From Verrucomicrobiaceae bacterium (GTDB taxonomy: Bacteria > Verrucomicrobiota > Verrucomicrobiia > Verrucomicrobiales > Verrucomicrobiaceae): a stretch of DNA of 64,000 nt. Below are positions 19,468 through 38,300 of the stretch, piece by piece. Every line of letters starts with the position of its first letter. Within the stretch, counting starts at the first letter, position 1. The stretch lies in NCBI GenBank assembly GCA_016795365.1, contig JAEUHN010000041.1, positions 1 to 64,000 on the forward strand, in the 5' to 3' direction. Made by a program: the position numbers and the translations under genes. The notes beneath the pieces are model-generated. The model worked only from the letters and a program-made list of their open reading frames with translations, made no database searches and was not told the DNA's origin.

Positions 19468-20600
19468 TCAATGACTTGTTCTCGCAGGCACGTGCATCAC
19501 AAAGCTCGTCTCCACATTCGGGATGCTGAGCAGATCGATAGTTCCACCATGGGCTTCCACCGCACGCTTCACGATGCTGAGGCCGAGACCAGTGCCTTTG
19601 GTTTCAAAAGCACGATCTTTACCGCAGCGGTAGAACCGTTTGAAAACGAAAGGCGCATCGTCTGGCGGAATCCCAATGCCATCGTCGCTGACCACGAAGA
19701 CAATTTCATCAGTCGTCCACTCGCCGCTGATCTTGATGTGAAGGCCCGTGCGTGGATTCTCTTTGAGGGCGTTCTCAATCAAATTGGTGAAAACCTGATC
19801 CCAGTAGAATCGGTCCCCGTTCATCACTCCACCGTCAGCAGGGAAATCGAGCGTGATCTGGGGCTGTCGCAGCTCGATCATCGGCGTCAGGTGCTCGAGC
19901 ACATCTTCCACGCAGGCACGGACATGGAAGGTTTCATACTTGAGCTGAGCGTCTCCACCTTCCAGCCGGGAGATGGTGAGCAGGTCCTCAATGATGCGCA
20001 TCATGCGCTTGCTATGCTTTTCCATCACCTCCAGGCAGCGCTGCATGGAGGGGCCGCCTTTGATCAATCCGCTCTGAAGCGTCTCGATATAACCATGGAT
20101 CAGGGAGAGTGGAGTGCGCAGTTCATGGCTGGCATTGGTAACAAAATCTCTCCTTATCTGCTCAGTGCGAACGTGATCGGTCACATCGTCCAAGATGCAC
20201 CACGCGCCGTCGGCACTCTCCACAGGCGCGGTCACGACGCGATAGATGCGTTCCTCATCGACACCCTGTGCAAGCGGCAAGGAGAGCCGTATCTCACCGG
20301 TTACCTGTCTGCCACTCCCGATGGCTTGCAAAAGCAGTTCGCGTAGCCCGACTGTCTCCTCGTTTTCCGAGAGATCGGCCTCGTCTTTCAGAGTGCCAGA
20401 TCGGAACATGAGCGTCGCGGCGAAATTCGCATACATCACGCGCAGCTCCGGATCGACCACGATCACACCCTGCTGCGTTTCATCCAGAAGGGTGGCGTAG
20501 AGCTTCTGCGGTGCGGGGCATCTGCGCAGATGGTTTGCAGCGGCTTTCACTGAGCGGGGCTGGGAGTGCGTGGCGGCTCCTGGTGCTGACAAGGTGACTG

Positions 20601-20604
<4 letters not shown>
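19468..20604 (-). CDS. phoR: PAS-domain sensor histidine kinase, PhoR-like
   Basis: The 378-aa product has a PAS domain at about residues 36-145. The HisKA domain has phosphoacceptor His160 in NASHELRTPL. The HATPase domain shows Asn274 in NLIENALK, the DDGIGIP block near 307-313, and GTGLGLSIVK. It autophosphorylates and passes phosphate to the response regulator encoded just upstream (4-nt ATGA overlap). The kinase core resembles PhoR of phosphate signalling. Unlike typical PhoR no transmembrane helix is visible, so it should be cytoplasmic. The symbol rests on domain order, pairing with a PhoB-like regulator, and the phosphate-related genes nearby. Confidence 0.82.
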
Positions 20605-21305
<701 letters not shown>

Positions 21306-21358
21306 ATCGGGATAGGTCCACTGTGTCGGAAGAAGCACAGCTGACGCAAAGCACGCTG

Positions 21359-21384
21359 TGTGACGTTCTCGTTGCAGTTGTGAC
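21359..21384. promoter_or_regulatory. Paired TGTGAC motifs between phoB and PAP2 gene
   Basis: TGTGAC occurs at 21359-21364 and 21379-21384, 20 nt apart, in the 172-nt divergent gap. The spacing is not the 11 or 22 nt of a standard Pho box. It is listed because the same hexamer recurs before other phosphate-related genes here. Confidence 0.3.
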
Positions 21385-21477
21385 AAAAGCTCCGGGCTTC
21401 CTGGCGCTGGAATCTGAGTGACAGGAACGTCGCGCAACAAGACATGCGGTCCAAGTGTCAGGGTTCACCATGAAGCC

Positions 21478-22221
21478 ATGCTCGCCAGATGCCTGCACGA
21501 ACTGACTTCGATCCGCCGTGATGCCGTGGAGGCATTCCAATACCTAACTCGCTGGCTAGGTGCCTTCACACCGCAGTTGGCCATCGGGCTGGCCCTTTCA
21601 CTCGCGGCCATCTGGGTGCTTCATCCTTGGGATGAGCTGATGATGGAACGCGCAGCCGATTTTAGGAAAGACGTGCCGCAAGCGATCTTGATCGCGCGCT
21701 GGCTGAGTTACCTGGGCGACTTCTTGGGCTTCAATGTGTTGCTGTTTGTGATCCTTAGAGTGGTAGGTCGCACACTCGGCTCACAACGACTGGCACGGCT
21801 GGCCGTCGCCAGCCTGTTGTGCGCCTGCCTTGCGGGAGCTGCGGCCAACGTCTCAAGAACACTCACGGGTCGCCCACGTCCCAGCACACCTCTTCCCGAT
21901 GGCCTCTATGGGCCTAGCCTTCATTCATCGATGCATGCGTTGCCTTCAGCTCATGCGGCAACGGCGTTTGGTGGTGCGCTGCCTGCGGTGATGATCGACC
22001 CACGGATCGGAGTGCCGCTTACCCTCTTCGCCGCCAGCGTGGGATGGTCGCGGATGCAACTCAACCGCCATCATCTGACTGATGTGCTCGTGTCATTGAT
22101 TCTGGCATGGTCCTTTTCTCTTCCGCTGTCGCATTGGGCGCTGCAACGCAGGCACCCCTTCCGCAAAGCCGCACCTTCGTTGCCCTCTAATGAACTTGCC
22201 ACTTCCCGCCATCCTCTCTGA
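21478..22221 (+). CDS. PAP2-family membrane phosphatase
   Basis: The product is about 247 aa from ATG 21478. It has several membrane helices and all three PAP2 signature blocks: RTLTGRPRP, PSAHAATA (the usual PSGH variant), and SRMQLNRHHLTDVL, in which the histidines and aspartate act in catalysis. These enzymes remove phosphate from lipid phosphates such as phosphatidic acid, phosphatidylglycerol phosphate, undecaprenyl diphosphate or lipid A (LpxE/LpxF type). The gene diverges from phoB and overlaps the ArnT-like gene by 32 nt. A role in trimming phosphate from lipid A or recycling undecaprenyl phosphate is inferred from that pairing. Confidence 0.88.
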   Translation: MLARCLHELTSIRRDAVEAFQYLTRWLGAFTPQLAIGLALSLAAIWVLHPWDELMMERAADFRKDVPQAILIARWLSYLGDFLGFNVLLFVILRVVGRTLGSQRLARLAVASLLCACLAGAAANVSRTLTGRPRPSTPLPDGLYGPSLHSSMHALPSAHAATAFGGALPAVMIDPRIGVPLTLFAASVGWSRMQLNRHHLTDVLVSLILAWSFSLPLSHWALQRRHPFRKAAPSLPSNELATSRHPL

Positions 22222-23872
22222 AGAGAAATGCCAGCGTCATGGTTGGTGGTTGCTGCTCGCAGTCACAGCGTTGCTCTACTTGCCGGGACTTGGTATCCTG
22301 CCGATGATGGATCGCGATGAGCCGCGCTTCGCCCACGCGACGGTGGAGATGATGCAGCGCGACAGCTGGCTCGTGCCCTATTTCAATGGCGACTACCGGT
22401 TTGACAAGCCGCCGCTGACTTATTGGTGGATGCGGCTGCACTATCATCTGCTGGGCGTTCATGAGTTCGCAGCGCGCCTGCATACCGTGGTTTCCACCTG
22501 GCTGGTGGCAGTCTTCATTCTGGGCATCGGTCAAAGGCTTGGCAGTGCGCGGATGGGGATGCTGGCGGGAATCGCATGGCTGCTCACTTTGCAAGTGCTG
22601 GTGCATGGGCGGCTCTGCGTGGCCGATATGCCGATGGTTCTCTTTGTAACGATGGCACTGCGCGCTGTGCTCGAACTTCTCATGAAGCCGCAACGCCGCT
22701 TCATCCGATGGCACTGGGTGCTTTTCATTGCGCTGGGACTCGGATTCCTCGCCAAAGGTCCGATTGCCTGGATCGTGCCAGCGCTCGCTCTGTTGCTGCA
22801 TCGCTTCGTGTTCTGGGGGCGCCACACTGAGTGGTCGTCGTTTCACTTCGGCAAAGGCATGACCCTCGCCTTGGCGATTGTCGGTCTGTGGGGAATACCT
22901 GCGCTGATCCAGACTGGGGGCCTGTTTTGGAAGGTGGGGATGGGCGAACATGTGGTGGAACGGGGTGCCTCGGCCCTGAATGGCCGCTTCCCTGTGCCAG
23001 GCTACTACTTCGTCACCGCAATCCTCAGTCTCTTTCCATGGATCGCATTGTTTCCGCAAATATGGCGGCGAGTGGCCCAGCGGTGGACGATGACAAACGC
23101 GCTTTTGCTCAGCTGGTTCGTTGCGCCGTATGTGATCTTTACCTTCTACGCCACCCAGTTACCTCACTACGTGATGCCCGGCTTCCCGGCTGCTATGTTG
23201 CTACTGGGCAAAGGCCTCGATCTCCGGGTTAAGTCACGGTGGCGTTGGTGGTCGTGGGGCGTGGTGGCGGCAATGGCCCTCGCACCGTTGATCGCACTTT
23301 GTGCCGGGCTACATCCAGCGATGCCGCCGGCGCTGCGTCCGCTGCTCCTCCATGGAGCGCTGACTCTGACGTTGATCGCCTTCGTCGGCTGGCTGGTCGT
23401 CAAGCTCAGCCAACGGGGGACCCGCACAGCTTATGGAGCACTGGCGGTTGCAGTCATCTGCCTGCCCCTCAGCTTCGCCATCGTGATGCGAGACATTCGC
23501 AACATTCATCCTGCTGTGCAGTTGCGGTGCGTGCTTGGTCCTGTGGCTCCCAATACCCAATGCCTCGGCTGGCAGTTCACCGAGCCGAGCCTCGTCTACC
23601 ACTTTGACCACCCATGGCGGTTCACTTCCAAGCAGGAGACGGTGGAGAAACAACTCCGTAAACCCGGCGACACGATCTTGGTGATGCTTCGTCGCGAGTG
23701 GACGCTCAGTCATACGCTTCGCAACGACGGTCCCGCCAAGGACTTTAGCAAGGAAGTGGATCAAGTGCTGGCAGCGCATCCTGAATTTCACCCTGTCGAG
23801 GTCCACGGATTCAATGCCGCTCGAAGCAGTTGGGTGGAACTCATGGCTCTACGGGCCGCCGTCTCGCCCTGA
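22190..23872 (+). CDS. ArnT-like (GT83) lipid-linked sugar transferase
   Basis: The 560-aa integral membrane protein has about 11 to 12 helices. Near the N-terminus is the acidic DRDEPRFA motif, typical of the GT83/PMT-like transferases that take sugars from undecaprenyl phosphate. PYFNGDYRFDKPPLTYWW follows, also characteristic of ArnT. The last 130 residues are a soluble periplasmic domain. ArnT itself moves aminoarabinose onto lipid A phosphate; the sugar and acceptor here are unknown. The start lies inside the end of the PAP2 gene, and the stop abuts the next start (TGAATG), so three genes form one unit. Confidence 0.88.
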   Translation: MNLPLPAILSEEKCQRHGWWLLLAVTALLYLPGLGILPMMDRDEPRFAHATVEMMQRDSWLVPYFNGDYRFDKPPLTYWWMRLHYHLLGVHEFAARLHTVVSTWLVAVFILGIGQRLGSARMGMLAGIAWLLTLQVLVHGRLCVADMPMVLFVTMALRAVLELLMKPQRRFIRWHWVLFIALGLGFLAKGPIAWIVPALALLLHRFVFWGRHTEWSSFHFGKGMTLALAIVGLWGIPALIQTGGLFWKVGMGEHVVERGASALNGRFPVPGYYFVTAILSLFPWIALFPQIWRRVAQRWTMTNALLLSWFVAPYVIFTFYATQLPHYVMPGFPAAMLLLGKGLDLRVKSRWRWWSWGVVAAMALAPLIALCAGLHPAMPPALRPLLLHGALTLTLIAFVGWLVVKLSQRGTRTAYGALAVAVICLPLSFAIVMRDIRNIHPAVQLRCVLGPVAPNTQCLGWQFTEPSLVYHFDHPWRFTSKQETVEKQLRKPGDTILVMLRREWTLSHTLRNDGPAKDFSKEVDQVLAAHPEFHPVEVHGFNAARSSWVELMALRAAVSP

Positions 23873-25591
23873 ATGCATCCCCTTTGTCTCATCGACGCCA
23901 TCGGCCCGTTCTTTCGCGGGCTGAGCAAACGCACCATCAACTGGTCGAAGATTCCCTTCGAGCACTTGCGTGAGGCGGATGAAGCAACGTGGTCGCGCAT
24001 TCATGGGGACCTTAACCACTTCACGCAGCAGGTGAGCGCGATGGGTTTCAATGCGGCATCACTGGATGATGTCTGGCATCTGGTGGATCACGAGGCGTAT
24101 GAGCCAGTGGTGCGGGGCCGCATCAGTCGCTACGTTGATGAGTTCCGCCGCTGCTTTGCGACACTGTGGGATCAAGGGATGCAGGTCTTTGTGACGATGG
24201 ACTTCTTCTCCGCAACGCGAGCGATGCGCGCCTGGTTGCAGCAGCGGCGCATCTCACCGGTCGAGTTCACAACACGGATACTGCATCAGTTCCTGACTGA
24301 TTTCCCCGAGGTGGAAGGCGTCATCGTGCGCATCGGCGAGTCGGATGGCCGCGATGTGAACGATGACTTCCGCAGTGAACTGCTGCTTAAGACCGCGAGG
24401 CAGACGAACGCCTTCCTGAGGCATCTGTTGCCTGTCTTTGAGCGACATGGAAAGAAGCTCATCTTCCGCACCTGGACCGTGGGCGCGTATCCCATCGGTG
24501 ATCTCATGTGGAACCGGCGCACCTTCGCCCAGGTGCTGAGTGGCATCAGCAGTGACGCACTCATCGTCTCGATGAAATACGGCGAGAGCGACTTCTTCCG
24601 CTACCTGCCACTGAATCGAAACTTCTTCCGCACCAAGGTCGCCAAGATCATCGAGCTGCAAGCACGCCGCGAATACGAGGGCTGCGGCGAGTATCCGAGT
24701 TTCGTTGGCTGGGAATACGAGCGCTACATCCAGGAACTGCGTCAGGCAGAGAACGTCGTGGGCTGCATGGTCTGGTGTCAAACCGGCGGCTGGGTGCCGT
24801 TTCGACGGCTTGCGTTCATCGATGGCACCGCGTTGTGGACCGAGCTGAATACCTTCGTCACGCTGCGCTTGTTCATGGGCGGTGCGCTGGTGGAGGATGC
24901 GGTGCGCGAGTTCGCCCAGCGCATCGAGTGCCAAGATGCGAATGCCTTGCTGGAACTCCTGCGCCTGTCCGACGAGGTGATTCGCGAGCTGTTGTATGTC
25001 GAAGAGTTCGCGCGGCAGAAGCTCTTCTTCCGCCGGCTCCGCATCCCGCCAATGCTGCAAGTGTATTGGCACAACATCTTCATCAGCCACAGCGTGCGGC
25101 GCATCCTTCGCTTCTTCGTTCAAGACCATGATGGCTGCATGAGAGCCTCGCATCGTGCCATGGACCGCCTGGCTCAAATGAAGGCGCTTGCGATCAAAGC
25201 GGGGCTGCTAGTGGCCGATATCGAGTTCATGCAGGATACCTTTGCCCTGTTGGTGCTCGCCCGTGAGTATGTCTTCACCGACGACAGCGAGTCGATGCAA
25301 CAGCGCATCCGTGAAGCCAAGCGCGCCTACAAGCAGAAGTATCCGAAGAGCGGTCCGCGCTACCGATACCGTGTGAAGCTTGACTTCACACTGCTCATGC
25401 TTCAGCCCCGTTATCTCCGCTGGGGCATCAATCTCCTCTTCCGTCGTCAACGCGGCTATCGGCTGGTGGATCGACTCATCACATTGCACCTCCTGTCGTT
25501 GATCTATCGCCTCATCGCCAAGCGCCGCCCGCAATGGGTGCCCTCCTTTGCCAAAGACAGCGCGATGGGCGTGGATGTGGTGTTTCGGTAA
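23873..25591 (+). CDS. Conserved hypothetical 572-aa protein, possible TIM-barrel glycosidase-like
   Basis: I do not recognise this protein. There is no signal peptide or clear membrane helix. The N-terminal half has alternating strands and helices with polar ends (VFVTMDFF, GVIVRIGESDGRD, KKLIFRTWTVGAY, DALIVSMKYGESDF, NVVGCMVWCQTGGW). That pattern resembles a TIM barrel of the glycoside-hydrolase kind with acidic residues at strand ends. The C-terminal half is helical and rich in Arg and Lys. It begins right at the stop of the ArnT-like gene and so is co-translated with it. It may act on the same glycolipid or surface glycan, but that is a guess from context. Confidence 0.75.
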   Translation: MHPLCLIDAIGPFFRGLSKRTINWSKIPFEHLREADEATWSRIHGDLNHFTQQVSAMGFNAASLDDVWHLVDHEAYEPVVRGRISRYVDEFRRCFATLWDQGMQVFVTMDFFSATRAMRAWLQQRRISPVEFTTRILHQFLTDFPEVEGVIVRIGESDGRDVNDDFRSELLLKTARQTNAFLRHLLPVFERHGKKLIFRTWTVGAYPIGDLMWNRRTFAQVLSGISSDALIVSMKYGESDFFRYLPLNRNFFRTKVAKIIELQARREYEGCGEYPSFVGWEYERYIQELRQAENVVGCMVWCQTGGWVPFRRLAFIDGTALWTELNTFVTLRLFMGGALVEDAVREFAQRIECQDANALLELLRLSDEVIRELLYVEEFARQKLFFRRLRIPPMLQVYWHNIFISHSVRRILRFFVQDHDGCMRASHRAMDRLAQMKALAIKAGLLVADIEFMQDTFALLVLAREYVFTDDSESMQQRIREAKRAYKQKYPKSGPRYRYRVKLDFTLLMLQPRYLRWGINLLFRRQRGYRLVDRLITLHLLSLIYRLIAKRRPQWVPSFAKDSAMGVDVVFR

Positions 25592-25952: not shown

Positions 25953-28900
25953 CTATGGCGCAGAAACTTGCAGGCGCATGAAGCGGCGCGTGTTGGCATT
26001 GTCCCGTGGATTGCTGTCACCAATTTGCACGACTTCATACGGGGCCTGCACGCTGGTGTAGATGCGGATGGAGCCGCCAGCCAGCCATGTCCAGGCTCCG
26101 GTGCCGGTCTTGCGGGCGACATCCGTCCAGGTGCCGAGGCTGTCGCTCGCTTGCACAGTATAGGTCACGTCTGCCGGTGCTGTTTGTGGGATGCTGAAGC
26201 TGAGGTAGAGACGGTCTTGCAGCAGGGGCTGATCGCTTGCATTGCCGCTGATGCCTTCGGGCAGCGCGCCGATGCCGTCGTCGCCATTGATGCTGGCAGG
26301 GTTCGCGCCGAGGGCGTATTCAAGAAGGTTGCTCACGCCATCGCCGTCAAAGTCGGCGGTGTTGGCTGCATTGCCGCTGTTCGCGTTGCTGCCGAAGTAG
26401 GTCTGACGCCAGCCATTGATCGGAGTGGCGATGGTCATCGTTCCTGGCGAGCCGATCCCGTTCGCATCATTGACGCTTGCGAAGGCACCGTTGTAGCCGA
26501 TCTCGCTGAACTGCGTGAGCAAAGCATTCTCCGCTGCTGCTGAGTTGTCGAAGGTCTTGAAGGGCGCAGCAACGGTGGAGGCACCGAAGAACACCTTCGC
26601 CCGGCGCACATTGTTGCTGTCGAAGAGATTCACTGCATCGCCGCCAGTGCTCAATCCAATGCCTGAGCCGGTGTAGCTGCCGATCTGCAAACCCGACGGA
26701 GGGCTAGCTCCGAACCAGGTGCTGCGGAAACTATTGATGGTCGTCGTGGGCGTCGCGGTCTCCAAGTAGATCACGGACTCCCCAGGCGCGATGCTGGCAA
26801 TGCCCGTCAGCGCAGCAGCGGCAGCGGGAGACTCCGAGCTGTCATCAATCTTCCAGCCGGTCATGTCTATGGAGCGGCCACCGATGTTCGTTACTTCGAA
26901 CCAGTCTGCCAGGTAGGGACTGCTGCCACTGCCCCAAGGCGCAACCTCAGTGATACGCAGCACGGGTGGCGCGCTGTAACCAGGTGAACCGACTTCGCTG
27001 GCATTCGCAGGTGCGACAAAGGCTCCATTCACTCCGGCTTGGCTGAGCAAGGAGACAGTGACGTTGTTCTGCGCGAGCGTGTTGTCGAAGGTGCGATAGA
27101 CCGGACCTGTGGAAGCTCCGAAGCTCACGCGGCACTGCTCTGTGCCCGCAGCATTGAAGATAATGACTCCATCGCCACCGCTGCTGAGGCCCACGCCGCT
27201 GCCGGTGTAATTGCCGATCTGCAAGCCGGAAGGTGCGGTGCCGCCAAACCACGTATTGATGAACGCAGTGGTCTTGCCGGGAAGGTCGGAGGTCTCGATG
27301 AAGATGACTGACTCACCAGGGGCGATGGTCGTGATGCCATTGAGCGCGACCGCACTGCCGAAGGTGAACGAGTTGTCGTCCATCTTGTAGCCCGTGAGAG
27401 TGACAGCGTTCGAACTGACGTTGGTGAGTTCGAACCAGTCAGCGAGAACGCCTGGACTGTTGCTGCTGGACCAGGGAGCGACCTCGGTGATCACCAGCAC
27501 GGCAGCAGGCGGTGTCTCGACGACTTGATCTTGCACATTGAGCGTGAAGGCGACACTCGCATCCGGCGTGCCGCCCACGGTGGTGTCATCCGCATGGATC
27601 GAGATCGTGTAGCTGGTCTTGGTCTCGTAATCGAGCACGACACCAGCCTTGAGGAACAGCTCTGTGCCGGTGAGTTCAAACGAGGCCGCGTCCGCGCCGT
27701 TGATGCTCAGCGTGTTCGTGCCAAGCCCATCATCGGTAACGACGACATCACCCACTTTGATGCGTGCTGCGGTGCTGGTGTTCTCCATGATCGAAGTCAC
27801 GCCATTGCTCACGGCCACGGCTGTGGCTGGCTGATTCGGCATGGCGGAAGGTGAGTAAACCCAGAGCTGCGGGTAGTCGATGCTGCCACCGCCGTTCTCA
27901 TTGACGATGTAGATGTTACCCACGCGGTCCATCGTGATGCCCTCGTGTTGCTGACCGGCCGGGGTCAAAGGATTGCCCACATCGGACTGAATGGTCAGCG
28001 TGCTGTGAATGTTGCCACTGCGGTCCACATTAATCACACGCGCATTCTCCTGGCTGAGCACGATCAGGTTGCCCGACTGCGTCTGGCCGTTCAGCGCGGT
28101 GAGATTCGACAAGGCATAGACATCCGCTGTGTCCGTCATGCCCAGCAACGCAGGGTCGAAGAGATTCGTCGAGTTCACCGTTGTGGGAGAGCCGTTCGTG
28201 GCGGTGCCAGCATTGAAGTCCACGCCTGTGTGGAAGATGCCCATGGGTGTGATCTCCTTCAGCACGATGAAGCCGCCTGTCTGTGGATCCCATGAGAGCC
28301 CCTCGGTGCCTACATTGTCCACGAAGGTGCCGATCTTCACCGTCTGCACTCCGGGGCTGGTGCGGGACAAGGTCGTGCCAGCGGCATACGTGAACTTCAC
28401 GAGCTGACGATCACGTTCCTCGCTCATCACAAACTGCCCCCCGCCGATGTAGGTGAGGCCTTCAGGATCATAAAAGTCAGTGCCTTGCGGGCTGCTCCCG
28501 AGCGCGAGCGTCATCGTATCAATGAGCGCTCCCGTTTTCGAGACCTGTGTGATCGAGCGACCGCCGTCGCCGGTGATGAAGAGCGAGTCAGTGTCCCAGT
28601 TGTAAGTCACGGCAGAGGCTTCCTGGCAGAGCAGGTTGCTCGTCGGTATGCCGGGAGGTAACGATGTGCGAGTTGGCTCTGGCAAATCATAGCGACCCAC
28701 ACGCACGTAGTTCGCGAGATTTACGCTCACGTCGTTGTCCGTGATGGACACGCTGGCTGTGACGTTCGCACCGAGGTCGTAGTCCACGGTGTCCGTGATC
28801 GTGAGTTCCGCGGTCTCATCGCCTTCCAGCAACAAGTCATCGACCGGTGTGATGGTGATGTCCGTGAATGACTCGCCTGCATTGATCACCGCAGTCCCAC

Positions 28901-29729
28901 TGAGCGCAGGCGTGTAGTCTGTCGCTGCCGCGCGCCCGGTGCCGGTGGTGATCGTGTAGTTCACGGTCAGCGCACTCGTCGTGCTGCCTGCGCGGCTGAT
29001 GCGGAAGGCGCCGGTGTCGGGCACAAAGGCTTCCGCTGCGCTCGCATCGGTGGCGGTGATCGTCACCACGGGCGTCGCTGGCGGGATCGCAGCACCGGGA
29101 GTGCCGAGCATGTTGGTAGCACCATTCAGCCAGGTGGTGCCAGTGGTTGTGAGCACACCTGTTGCAGATGAGGTGCTCGCACCCGTGGCATCATACGTCC
29201 AGCGGTAGGTTGTGCCCGTCGTTGCTGCGCCGAACGTCACACGAATCAATCCACCGAAGGGGCCGGCAAGTTCAGTGCCACCCTTCGCTGAGGTGTTGCT
29301 GAAGACGGTCACGCCATCACCTGCGGAACTCAATCCAACGCCGGTGCCCGAGTAGTAGCCTACCTGCACGGAGGAACCGAGTGACCAGTTGGTCTTGAAG
29401 GCAGCCACGCCAGCACCTGCGGCACTTTCAATGAAAACCACGGATTCACCCGGAGCGATGCTGGTGACACCCTGCAAGGCCACGGATGTGCTTACATTGG
29501 CGAAGCTGTTGTCATCCATTTGATAGCCAGTGATCGAGGCAGCAGCATCGCCGTAGTTGGTTAGTTCAAACCAATCGGACGTGTCGCCATTCGACATGAC
29601 TTCCGTGATGCGCAGAATCGGTGCCGCGAATGCGGGCGATGAGAAAGCGAATAAGCTGAGGATCAGGCTGAGCGCGATGATGCCGGGAGATTTTGGCAAG
29701 CGTGCGGGCAGAGGATAGCGGTGAGTCAT
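25953..29729 (-). CDS. Giant secreted protein: lamin-tail, Calx-beta and SdiA-regulated-type domains
   Basis: The product is about 1258 aa from ATG 29729, which begins a signal peptide ending near SSPAFAAP; an in-frame extension to 29897 has no signal. Three lamin-tail domains are seen at about 36-180, 743-910 and 923-1090 (RITEVxxxx...DWFELTN...GYxMDDNSF...IAPGESVxFIE). A Calx-beta repeat lies at about 215-335. A beta-propeller like the SdiA-regulated/esterase-phytase group spans about 340-625 (DPEGLTYIGGGQFVMSEERDR, LTPAGQQHEGI). A cadherin-like segment follows. The last 150 residues (WRQTYFG, DFDGDGVSNLLEY, NTRRFMRLQV) are closely shared with the 1704-aa PhoX-like protein. Extracellular phosphate or nucleic-acid scavenging is possible; no activity is proven. 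Confidence 0.85.
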   Translation of the reverse strand: MTHRYPLPARLPKSPGIIALSLILSLFAFSSPAFAAPILRITEVMSNGDTSDWFELTNYGDAAASITGYQMDDNSFANVSTSVALQGVTSIAPGESVVFIESAAGAGVAAFKTNWSLGSSVQVGYYSGTGVGLSSAGDGVTVFSNTSAKGGTELAGPFGGLIRVTFGAATTGTTYRWTYDATGASTSSATGVLTTTGTTWLNGATNMLGTPGAAIPPATPVVTITATDASAAEAFVPDTGAFRISRAGSTTSALTVNYTITTGTGRAAATDYTPALSGTAVINAGESFTDITITPVDDLLLEGDETAELTITDTVDYDLGANVTASVSITDNDVSVNLANYVRVGRYDLPEPTRTSLPPGIPTSNLLCQEASAVTYNWDTDSLFITGDGGRSITQVSKTGALIDTMTLALGSSPQGTDFYDPEGLTYIGGGQFVMSEERDRQLVKFTYAAGTTLSRTSPGVQTVKIGTFVDNVGTEGLSWDPQTGGFIVLKEITPMGIFHTGVDFNAGTATNGSPTTVNSTNLFDPALLGMTDTADVYALSNLTALNGQTQSGNLIVLSQENARVINVDRSGNIHSTLTIQSDVGNPLTPAGQQHEGITMDRVGNIYIVNENGGGSIDYPQLWVYSPSAMPNQPATAVAVSNGVTSIMENTSTAARIKVGDVVVTDDGLGTNTLSINGADAASFELTGTELFLKAGVVLDYETKTSYTISIHADDTTVGGTPDASVAFTLNVQDQVVETPPAAVLVITEVAPWSSSNSPGVLADWFELTNVSSNAVTLTGYKMDDNSFTFGSAVALNGITTIAPGESVIFIETSDLPGKTTAFINTWFGGTAPSGLQIGNYTGSGVGLSSGGDGVIIFNAAGTEQCRVSFGASTGPVYRTFDNTLAQNNVTVSLLSQAGVNGAFVAPANASEVGSPGYSAPPVLRITEVAPWGSGSSPYLADWFEVTNIGGRSIDMTGWKIDDSSESPAAAAALTGIASIAPGESVIYLETATPTTTINSFRSTWFGASPPSGLQIGSYTGSGIGLSTGGDAVNLFDSNNVRRAKVFFGASTVAAPFKTFDNSAAAENALLTQFSEIGYNGAFASVNDANGIGSPGTMTIATPINGWRQTYFGSNANSGNAANTADFDGDGVSNLLEYALGANPASINGDDGIGALPEGISGNASDQPLLQDRLYLSFSIPQTAPADVTYTVQASDSLGTWTDVARKTGTGAWTWLAGGSIRIYTSVQAPYEVVQIGDSNPRDNANTRRFMRLQVSAP

Positions 29730-29848
29730 GGTGGAGTGTGGAGTTGAATGAACCCTGCCATGAGTGTGTTCAGCGCATCGACTGACAAACTCGCTTGCGT
29801 GACAATCCGGCCCCATGGCGAAACCGTTGCAGACCCACGTGCTCCTTG

Positions 29849-29870
29849 TGTGACAACTGTGTGATCTGCT
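29849..29870 (+). promoter_or_regulatory. Pho-box-like 11-nt direct repeat (distal) before btaA
   Basis: TGTGA at 29849 is repeated at 29860 (TGTGACAACTG then TGTGATCTGCT), exactly 11 nt apart, the spacing used by PhoB. It lies between the divergent 1258-aa gene and btaA and could serve either. Confidence 0.45.
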
Positions 29871-29896
29871 CATCATGTTCACTGCACTCGTGGTCA

Positions 29897-29916
29897 CAGT
29901 GACGGGATTGTGACCT
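29897..29916 (+). promoter_or_regulatory. Pho-box-like 11-nt direct repeat (proximal) before btaA
   Basis: GTGAC at 29899 is repeated at 29910 (AGTGACGGGAT then TGTGACCTCGA), again with 11-nt spacing, about 75 nt before the btaA start. Confidence 0.45.
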
Positions 29917-29986: not shown

Positions 29987-31174
29987 ATGTCGAACCGCAC
30001 GCTCACTCCCCCTCGCCAGAGCCTTCTCAAACAAACGCACGATCTTGTCTTCAAGCGTGTGCATGGCTCTCATCTCATCTACAATTGTGCGTGGGAGGAC
30101 CCCCGTATTGATCGACATCTTCTTCAACTCAACAGCACAAGCCGTGTGGTGATGATCACCAGTGCGGGCTGCAATACGCTCGATTACCTGCTTGATGAGC
30201 CGGCCGAGATTCATGCGGTGGACATGAACTATCGCCAGAATGCGGTGCTCCATCTGAAAATGGCATTGATTCGCCAGGGCGATCACGAAGCGCTCTTTGA
30301 GATGTTTGGGAATGGGGCATCCAACAACTATGAATCCATTTACCGTTCTGTTCGCGAGCAGCTGCCGTTTGATGCGCTGCGATACTGGGACCAAAACATT
30401 CGAATGTTCGATCCTGCCACGATGAGAGGGAGCTTTTACTATCACGGCACGGCGGGAACTGCCGCGTGGCTGATGATGAAGGCACTGTTCCGCTCGCGGC
30501 ACACGCTGCGAGATCTGGCTTCATGCCTCCTTGAAGCCGAGAGTCTCGAGGAGCAGGCCGACATCTATCGCCAGATCGAACCCGAGATCTGGAACTGGCT
30601 TTGCCGCTGGCTGGTGCGTCAACCAATGCTGATGGCGATGCTCGGCGTGCCGCGTCCGCAGATTCGCATCATCGAATCGCAGTATCCGGGCGGCTTGAGT
30701 TACTACGTGCGGGACAAGATCAAGCATGTGCTCACGGAAGTGCCGATCGCCAGCAACTACTTCTGGAGGGTTTACATGATGGGCAGCTATCAGAGGGACT
30801 GCTGCCCCAGCTATCTTCACCACTCGAACAGGCATCTGCTAGCCAAACGATGCGGGAGAGTCACAACCCACAACACAACTGTGTCCTCTTTCTTGCGGGA
30901 GCATCCTGGCCAATACACCCACTTCGTCTTGCTGGATCACCAGGACTGGCTGGCGGCACACGATCCAGAGGCTCTGAGGGAAGAATGGGAACTCATTCTA
31001 CAGAACTGCGCTCGTGGTGCGAAGGTGCTTATGCGATCTGCCGGGCTGACAGTGGGCTTTATTCCCGAGGACATCCGCAAGATGCTCCGCTTTCATCCAG
31101 CGGTGACCACCGAACTGCACAAGCAGGATCGCGTGGGCACTTATGGCAGCACACATCTCGCGGAGGTTTTGTGA
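29987..31174 (+). CDS. btaA: S-adenosylmethionine:diacylglycerol 3-amino-3-carboxypropyl transferase (DUF3419)
   Basis: The product is 395 aa from ATG 29987; the frame extends to 29924 without family match. It matches DUF3419/BtaA along its length: VHGSHLIYNCAWEDPRID near the start, then ITSAGCNTLDYLL, the SAM-site-like HAVDMNYRQNAVLHLKMA, and FVLLDHQDWL with CARGAKVLMRSAG near the end. BtaA moves the aminocarboxypropyl group of S-adenosylmethionine to diacylglycerol, making diacylglyceryl-homoserine, the first step of betaine-lipid (DGTS) synthesis. This lets cells replace phospholipid in phosphate shortage. It is followed after 1 nt by btaB. Pho-box-like repeats lie upstream. Confidence 0.93.
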   Translation: MSNRTLTPPRQSLLKQTHDLVFKRVHGSHLIYNCAWEDPRIDRHLLQLNSTSRVVMITSAGCNTLDYLLDEPAEIHAVDMNYRQNAVLHLKMALIRQGDHEALFEMFGNGASNNYESIYRSVREQLPFDALRYWDQNIRMFDPATMRGSFYYHGTAGTAAWLMMKALFRSRHTLRDLASCLLEAESLEEQADIYRQIEPEIWNWLCRWLVRQPMLMAMLGVPRPQIRIIESQYPGGLSYYVRDKIKHVLTEVPIASNYFWRVYMMGSYQRDCCPSYLHHSNRHLLAKRCGRVTTHNTTVSSFLREHPGQYTHFVLLDHQDWLAAHDPEALREEWELILQNCARGAKVLMRSAGLTVGFIPEDIRKMLRFHPAVTTELHKQDRVGTYGSTHLAEVL

Positions 31175-31175
31175 A

Positions 31176-31811
31176 ATGGCTGTGAGTGCCCCACCTCTGC
31201 AGCGCTACTATCAGATGCACTCACGCATCTACGATCTTACAAGATGGAGCTTTCTGTTCGGACGTGAGATGCTGCTTAGGCAGGTCGCACGCCTGCAATC
31301 TCCACGTCAGATCCTGGAAGTTGGATGCGGCACCGGGCGAAACATCGAGTCCATGTGCCGGCTCTTTCCACAAGCTGAGATCACAGGCATTGATCTTTCG
31401 GTGGAGATGCTGGCAGTCGCGCGACGCCGCCTTGGTCACAAGTCGGATAGAGTGACGCTGATTAATGACGGCTATGACCGTCCTGTGCATAGTCACGGGA
31501 AGCCTTTTGATTTGGTGGTGTGCTCGTATGCCCTTTCTATGTTCAATCCTGGCTGGGAGCGGGCGATTGAATGCGCGAAAAAAGATCTGGCAGATGATGG
31601 CTTGTTTGCACTGGTGGACTTCCATCGGACACCGGTTCCAAGCTTCCGACGCTGGATGAGCATCAATCATGTCCGCATGGAGGGACATCTGAGGCCGCTG
31701 CTCACCAACTCATTCAAGGGAATGATCGACCGCACGACCGCAGCGTATGGTGGGCTTTGGCAATATCTGATGTTCGTCGGACAGAACGCCCCGGATGCAT
31801 CTCGGATGTGA
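31176..31811 (+). CDS. btaB: Diacylglyceryl-homoserine N-methyltransferase
   Basis: The product is 211 aa from ATG 31176, with GGAGG about 10 nt upstream, which decides the start over the longer frame from 31143. The Rossmann methyltransferase motif I is LEVGCGTGRN (about residues 48-57). GIDLSVEMLAVARRR is motif II and FDLVVCSYALSMFNPGW is motif IV. BtaB methylates the amino group of diacylglyceryl-homoserine three times with S-adenosylmethionine, giving DGTS at the membrane. Function follows from its size (Rhodobacter BtaB is about 210 aa) and its position 1 nt after btaA. Confidence 0.9.
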   Translation: MAVSAPPLQRYYQMHSRIYDLTRWSFLFGREMLLRQVARLQSPRQILEVGCGTGRNIESMCRLFPQAEITGIDLSVEMLAVARRRLGHKSDRVTLINDGYDRPVHSHGKPFDLVVCSYALSMFNPGWERAIECAKKDLADDGLFALVDFHRTPVPSFRRWMSINHVRMEGHLRPLLTNSFKGMIDRTTAAYGGLWQYLMFVGQNAPDASRM

Positions 31812-31882
31812 CAAAAGCTTTGCACGGCTTCGCTATCCATTGCGATCCGATAGTCCGAACATCGGACATCTCCAGCCTGCGA

Positions 31883-33007
31883 ATGCGACTGCTCATCGTC
31901 TCTGATACCTTCACTCCCGACGTCAACGGCGTCGCTAGATCGCTTCGGCAGTTTGCCATGGGCTTGTTGGAACGAGGTCATCATGTGGAGATTGTGACGA
32001 CGTGCGAAGATGACTCGGATACGCTGCCCCGCCATGTGGTGAAGGCACTTCCGATACCTGGCTACACCACGATCCGATTGGGGTTTGCTTCGCGTCGATG
32101 GTTCATGAGCCTGTTTGAAACGGTGAAGCCAGACGTGCTTTATGTCGCCACAGAGACTGCGCTCGGCATTGCGGCGATCTGGGCCTCACGAATCGCTGGC
32201 ATCCCTGTGGTGTCGGGCTTCCACACGAACTTTCACAGCTATGCCAAGGACTATCGTCTCGCGGCGCTGCAGCCTGCTGCAGAAGCCATCCTGCGTGCTG
32301 TGCATAACCACACCGAGCGCACTCTGGCCCCTTCCGTTCATACGGCAAGGCAGCTTAGGGAGATGGGTATCGAGAATGTGGGAGTTCTTGGACGCGGTGT
32401 GAACACGGAGTTGTTTGCACCGGATGCGAGGTCGATGGCACTGCGCCGATCGTGGGGTGCGGACTCTGAGACGCCGGTTGCGATCTATGTCGGACGGGTC
32501 GCGGCGGAGAAGAATCTCTCGTTACTCGAGCGGGCTTTTACAGGGTTTATCCAGGCGGTGCCTGGCGCACGATGTGTGGTAGTGGGTGCGGGCCCCATGC
32601 TGGAAGATCTGCAAGCGCGACATGGGAATTGGATCTTTGCTGGAGAGCGCAGTGGCCGGGATCTTGCTAGTCACTTCGCCAGTGCTGACGTGTTTGTCTT
32701 TCCCAGCGAGAGTGAGACGTTTGGTAATGTGGTGATCGAGGCATTGGCCAGTGGTCTCGTGACTGTGGCTTACAACTATGCGGCCGCGAACGAGCACGTG
32801 CGGCATGGGATCGAGGGCTTGCTCGCTCCGCTCGGAGATGAGGACGCCTTTCTACAGCAGGTTCGTGAGGCCGCTCGTCTCTGGGATGATGATGCCATTC
32901 GCATCCTGGCCCGAGTCCGGGCGCGTCAGCTCGGCTGGGCGACCCAGGTTGAGCACTTCGAGAATCAGCTGCTTCAAGTTATCTCCTCCCACACACCCAC
33001 GACATGA
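31883..33007 (+). CDS. GT4 glycosyltransferase, glycolipid synthase type (Agt/SqdX/MgtA-like)
   Basis: The product is 374 aa from ATG 31883 (MRLLIVSDTFTPDVNGVARS), the normal start for this family; an upstream frame from 31757 overlaps btaB. The N-terminal domain has GFHTNFHSYAKDY. The C-terminal nucleotide-sugar domain has YVGRVAAEKN and the E-x7-E block FVFPSESETFGNVVIEA. This is the GT4 group that includes SqdX, MgtA and the alphaproteobacterial Agt, which glycosylate diacylglycerol when phosphate is scarce. The gene overlaps plcP by 4 nt, the same pairing known in marine bacteria as agt-plcP. The sugar donated (glucose, glucuronate or mannose) cannot be told. Confidence 0.87.
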   Translation: MRLLIVSDTFTPDVNGVARSLRQFAMGLLERGHHVEIVTTCEDDSDTLPRHVVKALPIPGYTTIRLGFASRRWFMSLFETVKPDVLYVATETALGIAAIWASRIAGIPVVSGFHTNFHSYAKDYRLAALQPAAEAILRAVHNHTERTLAPSVHTARQLREMGIENVGVLGRGVNTELFAPDARSMALRRSWGADSETPVAIYVGRVAAEKNLSLLERAFTGFIQAVPGARCVVVGAGPMLEDLQARHGNWIFAGERSGRDLASHFASADVFVFPSESETFGNVVIEALASGLVTVAYNYAAANEHVRHGIEGLLAPLGDEDAFLQQVREAARLWDDDAIRILARVRARQLGWATQVEHFENQLLQVISSHTPTT

Positions 33008-33858
33008 AAACGAAACTCCGCGTCAAAACCCTCATCATGTCCGATGTGCATCTGGGCATGATCGACTCCAAAGCTGTGCAAGCTGCGCACATGCTTCGAC
33101 ACGTCGAGTGCGAGAAGCTCATTCTCAATGGCGACATCGTGGACGTGTGGGCACTCAAGTCCGGTGGCAAGTGGACACCTGAGCACACTCACTTCGTGCG
33201 CAGCGTGCTGAAGAAGATGGAGAAGGAGGGCACGCAGGTCGTCTATCTGCGCGGCAACCATGACGACATCATGGAGAAATTTCTGCCCTTCACGATTGGC
33301 GGGCTGAAGCTGGTCGATGAACACATCCACGAGTCACCGCACGGTCGCTACCTGGTGGTGCATGGAGATGGCTTTGATCACGTCACCACGAACCATGTGT
33401 GGCTGGCCAAGGTGGGAGCGGTGGGCTACAACGCACTGCTCCGTCTCAATCGCATTTACAACATGTGGCTGCGCTGGCGCGGCAAGCCAGGCTTCTCCTT
33501 CAGCTCGTATGTGAAGAAGCGGGTGAAGCAAGCCGTCGCCTTCACCGGGCGCTACGAGGAGCAACTCAAGGACCTCGCTACCTGGAAGGGATGTGCGGGC
33601 ATCATCTGCGGTCACATTCACACGCCTGCGGACAAGAGGATCGAAGACATACACTACCTGAATTCAGGCGATTGGGTGGAGAGCATGACCGCCATCGTGG
33701 AGCACCTCGATCGTTCGTTCGAGGTGCTAAATTACCACGATTTTTGCAAGCTCACCGGACGTGATCCAAAAGGCTCCGACGCCAGTCTCGATGTCGGTGC
33801 CATCAAGGAGAAGCCGCTGGCCTTGCCCGCGCCGATGCCTGTGTCGGCGGCCGCTTGA
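33004..33858 (+). CDS. plcP: PlcP-like phospholipase C (metallophosphoesterase)
   Basis: The 284-aa protein is a calcineurin-like phosphoesterase of the UDP-2,3-diacylglucosamine hydrolase group. It has all the metal motifs: SDVHLG (Asp14, His16), NGDIVD (Asp44), GNHDD (Asn85, His86), HGDGFD (His120, Asp122) and GHIHTP (His204, His206). PlcP of rhizobia and marine bacteria cleaves phosphatidylcholine and related phospholipids to diacylglycerol, which then feeds BtaA and Agt. Here it is the last gene of btaA-btaB-GT4-plcP with ATGA overlap, so this reading is favoured over LpxH. A lipid A role would need a check that lpxH/lpxI is present elsewhere. The C-terminal tail is Ala/Pro-rich. Confidence 0.85.
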   Translation: MKTKLRVKTLIMSDVHLGMIDSKAVQAAHMLRHVECEKLILNGDIVDVWALKSGGKWTPEHTHFVRSVLKKMEKEGTQVVYLRGNHDDIMEKFLPFTIGGLKLVDEHIHESPHGRYLVVHGDGFDHVTTNHVWLAKVGAVGYNALLRLNRIYNMWLRWRGKPGFSFSSYVKKRVKQAVAFTGRYEEQLKDLATWKGCAGIICGHIHTPADKRIEDIHYLNSGDWVESMTAIVEHLDRSFEVLNYHDFCKLTGRDPKGSDASLDVGAIKEKPLALPAPMPVSAAA

Positions 33859-33869
33859 GACACCTACGC

Positions 33870-34316
33870 CTACTTCTTCTTCACCGCGACAGGCTTGGGC
33901 TTCTTGCTGACCTTTGCCACCTTGTCCTTCGGCTTGTCTTTAGCTTTCTCCTTGCTCGCACGACTTGCCTTGCGGAACGCCTTGGCTGCGGCTCGTGCGG
34001 CTTCACGATGCTGTTTGGCATGTCTGGCATCCGCACGCAGCGATGCATCGGATTTCGCGGACACACGGAAGCGCTCGAACGACTCGTTGATCACCTTGGC
34101 TGCCTTCTTCTTCACGCGAATGTCCGTGTGCTTCGCGTCGGCTTTGAGCAGGCCGGCCTCGATGAGGTGCTTCACTTGAGTCGAAAGAGACTCGGCGGAT
34201 TCCTTCAGCACACTGGAGAGATCACCAAGGCTGCAACGGTGGGCCTGAACAAGGGCCAGGATGCGAAGACGAAGAGGATCAGCGAGGGCAGAGGCAAAGG
34301 AGAGCAGTGCTTTCAT
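33870..34316 (-). CDS. ArsR-type winged-helix regulator with lysine-rich tail
   Basis: The 148-aa product has an ArsR-type winged helix in residues about 1-85 (DPLRLRILALV, CSLGDLSSVLKES, LSTQVKHLIEAGLLKA). Residues about 95-148 form a tail almost entirely of Lys, Ala, Arg and Pro (KPKDKVAKVSKKPKPVAVKKK), like eukaryotic histone H1 tails. No metal-binding cysteine pair of the ArsR type is obvious (one Cys only). The gene converges on plcP, with 11 nt between stops. An 18-nt inverted repeat, TGTGACA-n4-TGTCACA, lies 60 nt before its start and could be its own operator. Confidence 0.8.
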   Translation of the reverse strand: MKALLSFASALADPLRLRILALVQAHRCSLGDLSSVLKESAESLSTQVKHLIEAGLLKADAKHTDIRVKKKAAKVINESFERFRVSAKSDASLRADARHAKQHREAARAAAKAFRKASRASKEKAKDKPKDKVAKVSKKPKPVAVKKK

Positions 34317-34375: not shown

Positions 34376-34393
34376 TGTGACAAAGGTGTCACA
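34376..34393. promoter_or_regulatory. Perfect inverted repeat TGTGACA-aagg-TGTCACA
   Basis: A 7-4-7 palindrome that overlaps the last codon of the 70-aa gene and lies 60 nt before the ArsR-type start. It is of operator size and uses the TGTGACA sequence seen before phosphate-related genes in this window. Confidence 0.5.
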
Positions 34394-35318: not shown

Positions 35319-38300
35319 TTACGGAGTAGTCACTTGGAGCTGCATGAAGCGGCGGGTGTTCGTGCTGTTGCGCGGCACCAGATCGCCCACCTTGAGGAGC
35401 TGATACGGAGCCTGCACACTGGTGAAGAGACGGGAAGTGCCGCCGCCGAGCCAGGTCCAGGAACCGTTGCCGATCTTGCGAGCGACATCGGTCCAGGTGC
35501 CGAGGCTATCAGTAGCCCGCACCGTGTAGGTCACATCAGCCGGCGCACTCTGTGGAATGCTGAAGCTGAGGTAGAGACGATCGGCGAGCAGTGGATCATC
35601 GCTGACGCTGCCGCTCACGCCGACGGGGAGGCCAGCGACACCGGCCACGGTGGGGTTCAAGCCCAAGCCGTATTCCAAGAGGTTTGACACGCCATCACCA
35701 TCGTAGTCCGCAGTGTCGGCGGTGAGGCCGCTGTTGGCGGTGGTGCCGAAGTAGGTCTGACGCCAGCTCTGCACGGGAGTCGCGACGGAGTTGATCGTGA
35801 TGGTGGCAACTGCAGGCGCACCGGTAGTGGCATCCGTTGGAGCCGTGCCGGCGACGAATGTGTAGAATACGCGTGTGGCTGCACCAGCGCCGAGGCGGTC
35901 GGTGATGGTCACGTTGACATTCTTCGTGCTTTCGCCAGCAGCGAAGTTCACCGCGAAGCTGCTCAGTGCCGTGTAGTCCGTGCCGGACAATGCAGTGCCG
36001 TTGGTGGTGGTCACGCTGGCCGTTGCAGGCTGCGCGAGATCGCCAAAGCGATTGATCGTGAGCGTGACCGGACCGGCGTTCTCATTCACAGCGGCAACCG
36101 CCGAAGCGAGCGAGAAGGCGACACGCGGCGTGTGACGGACGAGCAGGAGCTGCCCGCCTTCCACCAGTGCGCCGGTGATCGAGTAGTGCGCCTGATCAGC
36201 GACGAAATACACATGCTCGCCTGCGGCGGTGTTGCCACCGAACATTGCGGTCACGTCAATGACGCCGGAGCTTTCCTCGTCCTGGGTGAAGGGCGCGGTG
36301 GCTGCGGTGGTCACGCCAGCAAGGTTGTCACCGAAGCGGGCAGTGTCGTGGCGCAGCACCTTGGTCAGCGTTCCGGTCACAGGATCATAGGACCACACCT
36401 TCGCGTTGTGCGGGGTGTTGCCCGGATCTTCCTGGAGCATGAGCTTGCCATCATAAGTGACGCAGAGGTTGTCCCACATATTGGCGTCGTTGCCGATGCC
36501 GCCCGTCAGGAGCAAATCAATGCTGCCGCCGAGATCAGGATTGGTGATGTCATCGAAGGTCAGCTTCCACAGGCGTGTGCGGCCGATCTGGCTGCCAAGT
36601 CCAAGCGTGGCGGTATCGATTCGATCCGTCGTCACGAAGTAGAATTCGCGCGGATTCGATGGATTCCACGCACCGTCTTCGGGGCGCGAGAACACCGTCG
36701 AAGTCGTGGCGCTGAGCGAGAAGCGTGTGCCGCTCGTGATGTTGGTGGCGCGCGTGGTGGCGTCAACGATCTCGGCAGCATTGCCGGTGACGTTGATGAA
36801 CTTCTGCACGCCATTGGTGAGACCTGCCTTGTCGGCTTCGGTGCCGGTGTTGGTTTTGGTGCCCACATAAACGGAGACCGCATTGGCCATGATGCCGGTG
36901 CCGCCATCATTGGTGCCAATCACAACCGTTTTGTCCTGTGCAAAGGGATTCGCCAGGAGGTTCTCCCAGCCGCCGACGGCGGTGAGGCCCGAGCCATTGG
37001 TGCTCAGGTTGAACTTGCCCAGGATGTAGGTCTTGCCCTTGTTCGCACCGGTGGCGACGTTTGCCAAGGCCCAGCCGTTGGCTCCGCCTTCCTCCCCGTT
37101 CATGTAGATACGCTCCTGCGTGCCGAGGCCCGAGGCTGCATTGTAGAACGCCGTTACCGGAGGCAGGTCAGCCGAGCAGGGACGATTGAAGGCGAAGGTG
37201 CCCGTGGTCGAGTTTGACACTTGGTTGGTCGCATCCCAGCCATAGACGGAGGTGATCAGATCGCCCGCCGAGACCACGGCGAGCGTGTTCTTGTTGATGA
37301 TCCACTCGGACACGAAGCCGCCAATCGCACCATGGGCGCGAGCGACACCGAGCGTGTTGCCGATCTCATGGTTCACCAGGAGCGTCACCGTTCCGTTGCC
37401 GTTGTCATACACGCCAAGACCATCGGCGAGACCAGACATCTGGTAGGTGCCGCCACCGGTCTTTGGCACGTTGTCGCCCACCGTCGTGATGGAAGTCGTG
37501 GCGTAATCAGGATGCATCGACACGAGGTAAGGCGTAGCGCTGCTGCTGGGGCCGGTCTGTGCTGCCGTCTGCTGCACGAGCAGGAGCTGGCCTCCTTCCA
37601 CCATGGGAGCTGCGATGGAGTAGTGCGACTGATCGGCGATCAAGTAGTAGCGCTGGCCCGTCGTGTGGTTGCCACCGAACATCGCCGTCACATCAATGAC
37701 GCCAGAGCTTTCCTCATCCGCATTGAACGGAGCCGTCGCAGGCTGCGAGGTGCTGCCGAAGCGGGCCGGATCATGCTGCAATGCCTTGGTGAGCGAACCG
37801 GTGGCCGGATCATAGAACCACACCTTTGCATTGTGCGCGGTGTTGCCCGGATCTTCCTGGATGACGAGCTTGCCGTCGCCGGTGACGCAGAGGTTGTCCC
37901 ACATCGTCGCGTCGTTGCCCACGCCACCCGTGGCAAGAAGATCAATCGTGCCGCCAAGATCAGGATTGGTGATGTCGGTGAAGTTCAGCCTCCACAGGCG
38001 AGTGCGTCCGATCTGTGTGCCAAGGCCCAGCGTTGCCTGATCAAGACGATCCGTCGTAACGAAGTAGAACCGGTTCGGATTCGTCGGATCCCACGCGCCG
38101 TCTTCAGGACGGGAGAACGTGGTGCAAACCGTGGTGCTCAGGGTGAACGCCGTGCCGCTGGTGATCGCGGTGGTGCGCGTGGTCGTGTCGGAGAGTTCGT
38201 CCGTGGTGGTGCCGCTGTTGTCAGCGAAACCGGTGACAGCGATGAACTTCAGCGTGCCGTTGGTCAGGCCCGCCTTGTCAGCATCCGTGCCGGTGTTGGT

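Follow-up and report, generated by a model that had tools for sequence, protein, structure and literature searches.

A btaA-btaB-GT4-plcP gene run in one verrucomicrobial genus and its predicted role in phosphate-responsive membrane-lipid replacement

Gene content and enzyme assignments

The window, i.e., the whole stretch of 64,000 nucleotides analysed here, comes from a Verrucomicrobiaceae genome (6.7 Mb, 97% complete) that encodes BtaA and PlcP in a single copy each. Positions 29987-33858 comprise four open reading frames, all on the plus strand, in the order btaA-btaB-GT4-plcP (Table 1). The start of btaB is the ATG 1 bp past the btaA stop codon, btaB and GT4 are 71 bp apart, and GT4 and plcP overlap by 4 bp; for GT4, the listed TTG start at 31757 was ruled out because homology to the relatives begins at the ATG at 31883. 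A previous reading of the same DNA, made without database searches (the sequence-only reading), described four genes in one direction with tiny gaps or overlaps. The open reading frames agree with this description, and an identical order is found in the congener, MAG KLAP44 (genome G157, loci L028/L078), so that the layout is not a matter of chance. Compared with the congener locus L028, protein identity (third-position identity in brackets) is 97.5% (74%) for PlcP, 76% (43%) for GT4, 84% (50%) for BtaA and 57% (38%) for BtaB; recent recombination at plcP is possible, judging from these values. A very large protein with lamin-tail and SdiA-regulated/phytase-like domains is encoded between X588 and btaA (25953-29897, minus strand), and further giant open reading frames occupy 35319-40433 and 47401-58623 (-).

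Table 1. Coordinates of the features discussed, in positions of the window
Feature	Position	Strand	Evidence or remark
phoR-type histidine kinase	19468..20604	-	orthologue adjoins plcP or GT4-plcP in relatives
phoB-type response regulator	20601..21440	-	true start near 21305; orthologue adjoins plcP in relatives
Pho-type box TGCAACGAGAACGTCACA	21359..21376	.	phoB/divergent PAP2 intergenic, score 14.3, ~55 bp ahead of phoB
PAP2 family lipid phosphatase	21418..22221	+	PF01569 66 bits
ArnT/PMT-like membrane glycosyltransferase	22190..23872	+	PF13231 58 bits; NF009784 118 bits, below cut-off
X588, family-less, predicted GH67 alpha-glucuronidase fold, recurrent GT4-plcP partner	23873..25591	+	predicted model and synteny
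GTGAC-N6-GTGAC direct repeat GTGACGGGATTGTGAC	29899..29914	.	5' of btaA; weak as a Pho-type box; shared with congener
btaA, S-adenosylmethionine:diacylglycerol 3-amino-3-carboxypropyltransferase	29987..31174	+	DUF3419
btaB, betaine-lipid headgroup N-methyltransferase	31176..31811	+	
Pho-type box TGTGACAAAAGCTTTGCA	31807..31824	.	within operon, btaB/GT4, 76 bp before GT4 start, score 11.4
GT4 glycosyltransferase, presumed diacylglycerol glycosyltransferase	31883..33007	+	PF13439/PF13692
plcP, metallophosphoesterase/phospholipase C type	33004..33858	+	PlcP homology and tree

A profile search matches BtaA to PF11899 (DUF3419) with 345 bits over positions 7-383 of 385, and an alignment with the BtaA of Rhizobiaceae shows 29-30% identity and many invariant columns. 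This full-length match is accompanied by an adjacent btaB, which in most relatives also lies immediately 3' of btaA. By profile, BtaB is a SAM methyltransferase; it shows 36% identity to the S. meliloti methyltransferase that adjoins the btaA match there. Judged from these sequence comparisons, the BtaA-BtaB assignment is well supported. A divergent second DUF3419 subfamily (L058-L062, L265), about 24% identical to BtaA and without btaB, occurs across other families of the order; such low-scoring proteins were dropped as BtaA candidates because no btaB adjoins them.

The fourth protein contains calcineurin-type metal-binding motifs (SDVH, GD, GNHDD and GHIH, where DxH, GD, GNHD/E and GHxH are expected) and is 43% identical to P. 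aeruginosa PlcP and 38% to S. meliloti PlcP. Its homologues are named LpxH in public annotation records, and among NCBIfam models it matches LpxH best (41 bits), as would be expected of a second UDP-2,3-diacylglucosamine diphosphatase of lipid A synthesis. However, this score is far under the cut-off of 134, and GNHDD stands where E. coli LpxH has GNRDF. Moreover, a tree of 73 rows parts six LpxH sequences from all PlcP rows at 100/98, with the window protein on the same side of this split as the PlcPs of P. aeruginosa and S. meliloti, and LpxI is encoded elsewhere in the genome, so that lipid A synthesis needs no LpxH here. On these points an LpxH identity was rejected; we consider it extremely improbable. 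The sequence-only reading named a grouping with LpxH as one outcome that would count against it; the tree separates the two, and profile matches, homology and the tree uphold its identification of BtaA, BtaB and PlcP. The third protein, GT4, is 33-36% identical to Agt-type enzymes adjoining plcP, and its invariant H114 corresponds to the catalytic histidine (H104) of GTcp. At the first acidic position of the EX7E motif the window GT4 reads SESETFGNVVIE, with Glu, and the Agt-type rows TDT; the Asp of Agt is absent from the window GT4 in this alignment. In SAR11 GTcp, an Agt homologue, this residue (D256) is essential (PMC8231724). Given that Glu sits where the Asp of the SAR11 enzyme is essential, GT4 is, on this alignment, a sister group of Agt and not an Agt orthologue; the original description as Agt/SqdX-like calls for correction, the likeness to SqdX not being borne out. 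PimA enzymes are the closest solved relatives, and among NCBIfam models that for N-acetylglucosaminyl-PG synthase comes closest (144 bits vs a cut-off of 480), which might point to a phosphoglycolipid product or to another acceptor, of the PimA or GlcN-PG-synthase kind, in place of diacylglycerol. The constant coupling, and even fusion, of GT4 to PlcP, the diacylglycerol-releasing enzyme, instead favours a diacylglycerol acceptor, so that the use of another one appears unlikely.

Distribution in the order

Among 240 genomes of the order, PF11899 is detected in 93, PlcP in 172 and GT4 in 165. In 118 of the 123 listed genomes with both genes, plcP is preceded by GT4 at a distance of no more than 500 bp, and the GT4-plcP pairs are on the same strand in all cases (119/119). 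In 22 of the listed genomes, both share a single open frame, 640 aa or longer, that encodes a GT4-PlcP fusion; five of these fusions (L036-L040) were read directly. The fusion polypeptides, of about 650-740 aa, belong to families f2 and f5. No paper on plcP fusions was found in the literature searched, which in itself is no proof of novelty. Because the GT4-plcP pairing is order-wide, it appears to be an old unit of the order, with btaAB as the later partner. PlcP has been reported in one verrucomicrobium (PMC4796936), and no PlcP is reported for the verrucomicrobial methanotrophs (PMC9239053).

BtaA is encoded within 10 kb of GT4 in only four genomes of the order, namely those of the window and KLAP44, G186, where the two are divergent, and G025, where BtaA is 5 kb off on the same strand. 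A scan of named genomes with the BtaA profile yields 80 loci and reveals btaAB joined by plcP in Competibacteraceae, Victivallales, Planctomycetes and Saprospiraceae. Across the order survey and these 80 loci, all four genes on one strand and in this order are present in the window and KLAP44 only. The search for the same gene order in other Verrucomicrobiota, suggested with the sequence-only reading, accordingly leads to the congener alone, and the proposed module of this phylum has to be narrowed: the one-strand, four-gene form is known from one genus only in these surveys, whereas GT4-plcP extends across the order.

A PlcP 70-80% identical to that of the window is found in about 20 genomes, mostly of the largest sister genus, in which it is a second, orphan copy. 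It groups with the window PlcP in the tree and in many of those genomes adjoins orthologues of the window phoB-phoR. btaA accompanies this PlcP in 19 of 20 genomes; among the remaining genomes of the family, 26 of 45 have btaA (counted by hand; Fisher 0.003, uncorrected for relatedness).

Pho-type motif, regulators and the X588 protein

In 37 non-redundant btaA promoters, Gibbs sampling identifies a shared 18-bp motif with an information content of 18.6 bits, vs about 10 in shuffles; when the window and its congener are left out, the resulting matrix reads TGTGACGAAANCGTCACA. This motif sampling took the place of a scan for exact repeats, in which exact 6/6 11-bp repeats were found in the btaA promoter of the window and in none of the relatives. 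In the host genome, this motif is common to pstS, where it lies just ahead of the conserved part, phoB and GT4 (scores 25.1, 14.3 and 11.4, respectively, compared to 6.7 as the 95% point for stretches of 330 bp). Direct repeats of the PhoB type had been noted ahead of btaA; a repeat does exist there, but it is weak, scoring 2.8 on the lineage's own motif, below the 95% null, and the GTSAC-N6-GTSAC pattern occurs twice in 64 kb vs 0.5 expected, with as many in 7 of 100 shuffles. The good Pho-type boxes instead lie in the phoB/PAP2 and btaB/GT4 gaps. In the relatives, scores above 10 are obtained for 11/11 phoB starts, 11/13 starts of GT4 or the fusion and 5/9 X588 starts, compared to 20 of 296 control starts; related species are not independent, so that P values for these counts overstate the case. 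Some of the high-scoring controls are themselves phosphate genes, e.g., the Porin_O_P gene near btaB in G186 (box 18.8). Another tally places a box at 17 of 20 GT4-plcP promoters. Two fusions from genus g12 (L037 and L038), tabulated under PlcP, have no box (scores -4.5 and -5.6). The location of the motif at pstS and phoB suggests that it is bound by PhoB.

The phoBR pair, placed 9 kb away in the sequence-only reading, is indeed present, about 8.5 kb from the operon, with family scores below the cut-offs (PhoB, 235 bits against TIGR02154 with a cut-off of 296; PhoR likewise under its own). A connection to the Pho system is supported by the genomic context, which includes phoBR, phoU after X588-GT4-plcP in G140, a PhoX gene inside the btaA-GT4-plcP cluster of G025, the phosphate porin and the pstS box. 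The highest-scoring Pho-type box of the window (15.8, at 34376-34393) lies 60 bp before the start of a short gene (33870-34316, minus strand), convergent with plcP, whose HTH product is ArsR/MarR-like and has a lysine-rich tail.

Divergent from phoBR, with the box in between, is the run 21418-25591, in which the PAP2 gene overlaps the ArnT-like gene and X588 abuts the latter. The PAP2 protein, too, could feed diacylglycerol, from phosphatidate. For X588 (572 aa), neither Pfam (E<=5) nor NCBIfam gives a match, and a sequence search against solved structures yields nothing meaningful. Orthologues are found in 128 of the 240 genomes; in 16 genomes X588 is no more than 2 kb from GT4 or plcP, and in five no more than 3 kb from btaA; one genome belongs to both sets, so that about 20 genomes show one or the other proximity. 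Besides G140, examples are GT4-plcP-X588 in G162 and, in G186, btaB-btaA divergent from GT4-plcP-X588. A Foldseek search started with the AlphaFold model (pLDDT 84.8) identifies GH67 alpha-glucuronidases as the top matches (E 9e-11), and all nine GH67 entries take ranks 1-9 of the VIA structure ranking, with Z of 18.1-18.9 over 394-419 residues, followed by 17.3. Profile-profile comparison with GH67 gives an E of 3.5e-5 and a probability of 72% (unrelated-family controls, 0.38 and 0.28), and a search with X588 retrieves a Persicobacter protein (E 7e-9) whose sole Pfam match, a weak one, is GH67 (E 0.029). Two motifs, MKYGESDF (D240) and ELQxRREY (E267), are invariant and align with the catalytic-base motifs of GH67; the catalytic acid would be E156 or D158, the alignment being ambiguous there. 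X588 resembles GH67 in predicted fold and, by this alignment, in the two base motifs. In contrast to GH67, it has no apparent N-terminal secretion signal, lacks the GH67 N-terminal domain, shows 10-12% identity and adjoins lipid genes, not xylan genes.

Agt-type enzymes produce alpha-glucuronosyl-diacylglycerol (PMC8231724), hence the proposal that X588 removes glucuronate; UDP-glucose dehydrogenase-type genes are present in the host genome. From its predicted fold and genomic association, X588 may take glucuronate off a glycolipid, and it is likely a fifth function that the first reading missed. Only tentatively do we suggest the fuller scheme, in which X588 would be an intracellular, lipid-directed alpha-glucuronidase acting on the product of the neighbouring GT4, so that the lineage would possess a forward and a reverse arm, the former being a single GT4-PlcP channelling protein in some families. 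No paper on glycolipid glucuronidases was found in the literature searched, itself no proof of novelty.

Proposed lipid replacement and comparison with known systems

The observations that bear on function are the gene content and order, the homology, the PlcP/LpxH split, the coupling and fusion of GT4 and plcP, and the common promoter motif. They are best compatible with a phosphate-responsive membrane-lipid replacement operon, a reading that we hold with considerable confidence and in which the reactions, products, low-phosphate induction and single transcript are predictions. Apart from the corrections given above, most of the sequence-only reading is upheld. PlcP would cleave phospholipids to diacylglycerol and the phosphate-bearing headgroup. 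Part of the diacylglycerol would be glycosylated by GT4; the other part would receive a homoserine group from SAM through BtaA and three methylations through BtaB, yielding the betaine lipid DGTS. The nearby PhoR-PhoB would control the genes through an operator of the GTGACG-N4-CGTCAC type. Historically, btaAB would have come to sit upstream of the older GT4-plcP unit in this genus.

Several findings run against lipid replacement: the low score (2.8) of the window's own box before btaA; the lack in GT4 of the Asp essential in the SAR11 Agt homologue, which leaves sugar and acceptor uncertain; the sub-cut-off scores of PhoB and PhoR in a genome with many OmpR-type regulators; and the many relatives that have GT4-plcP without btaA. 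The presence of GT4-plcP in most of the order, with or without btaA, and the boxless fused GT4-PlcP of the small-genome genus g12 (L037 and L038) would also fit a constitutive glycolipid or envelope pathway with no phosphate response, which btaAB joined through chance rearrangement. Such a pathway is hard to reconcile with a pstS/phoB-type box at most GT4-plcP promoters (17/20; 11/13) and with the adjacency of phoBR, phoU and phoX, and we regard it as improbable. Phosphate-responsive lipid replacement, as proposed here, involves parts of known kinds; what is new is the gene arrangement, the common control signal and the probable sugar-removing partner. It would widen the known range of phosphate-sparing lipid replacement by an entire order of bacteria, bring the betaine and glycolipid branches into one gene run in this genus, and yield a candidate Pho operator of this lineage. 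The natural GT4-PlcP fusion could pass on diacylglycerol within one protein, and X588 is a candidate enzyme for reversing the lipid swap, a step on which no paper was found in the literature searched.

Known clusters are of the plcP-btaA-btaB or the plcP-agt type (PMC4796936). The type 1 cluster of Phaeobacter sp. MED193, for which Pho-box control and betaine lipid under phosphate limitation are reported (PMC4796936), shares PlcP, BtaA and BtaB with the window but has no glycosyltransferase, starts with plcP and encodes a PlcP of the Proteobacterial branch. Type 2, plcP-agt, known from Agrobacterium, SAR11, P. aeruginosa and Methylosinus, resembles the window in the coupling of PlcP to a diacylglycerol-glycosylating GT4, an activity that is predicted for the window enzyme (PMC4796936, PMC8231724, PMC9239053). 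It differs in the reverse gene order (GT4 comes first in the window), in the GT4 subgroup and in the lack of btaAB; no fusion of this type is described in the papers found, whereas GT4-PlcP fusions occur in the present order. A further similar arrangement is btaA-btaB-plcP with an adjacent GT4 in Competibacteraceae (Contendobacter, L094), which brings together the same four functions; there, however, GT4 is on the opposite strand and PlcP is of the Proteobacterial branch, which argues for an independent assembly of the four functions.
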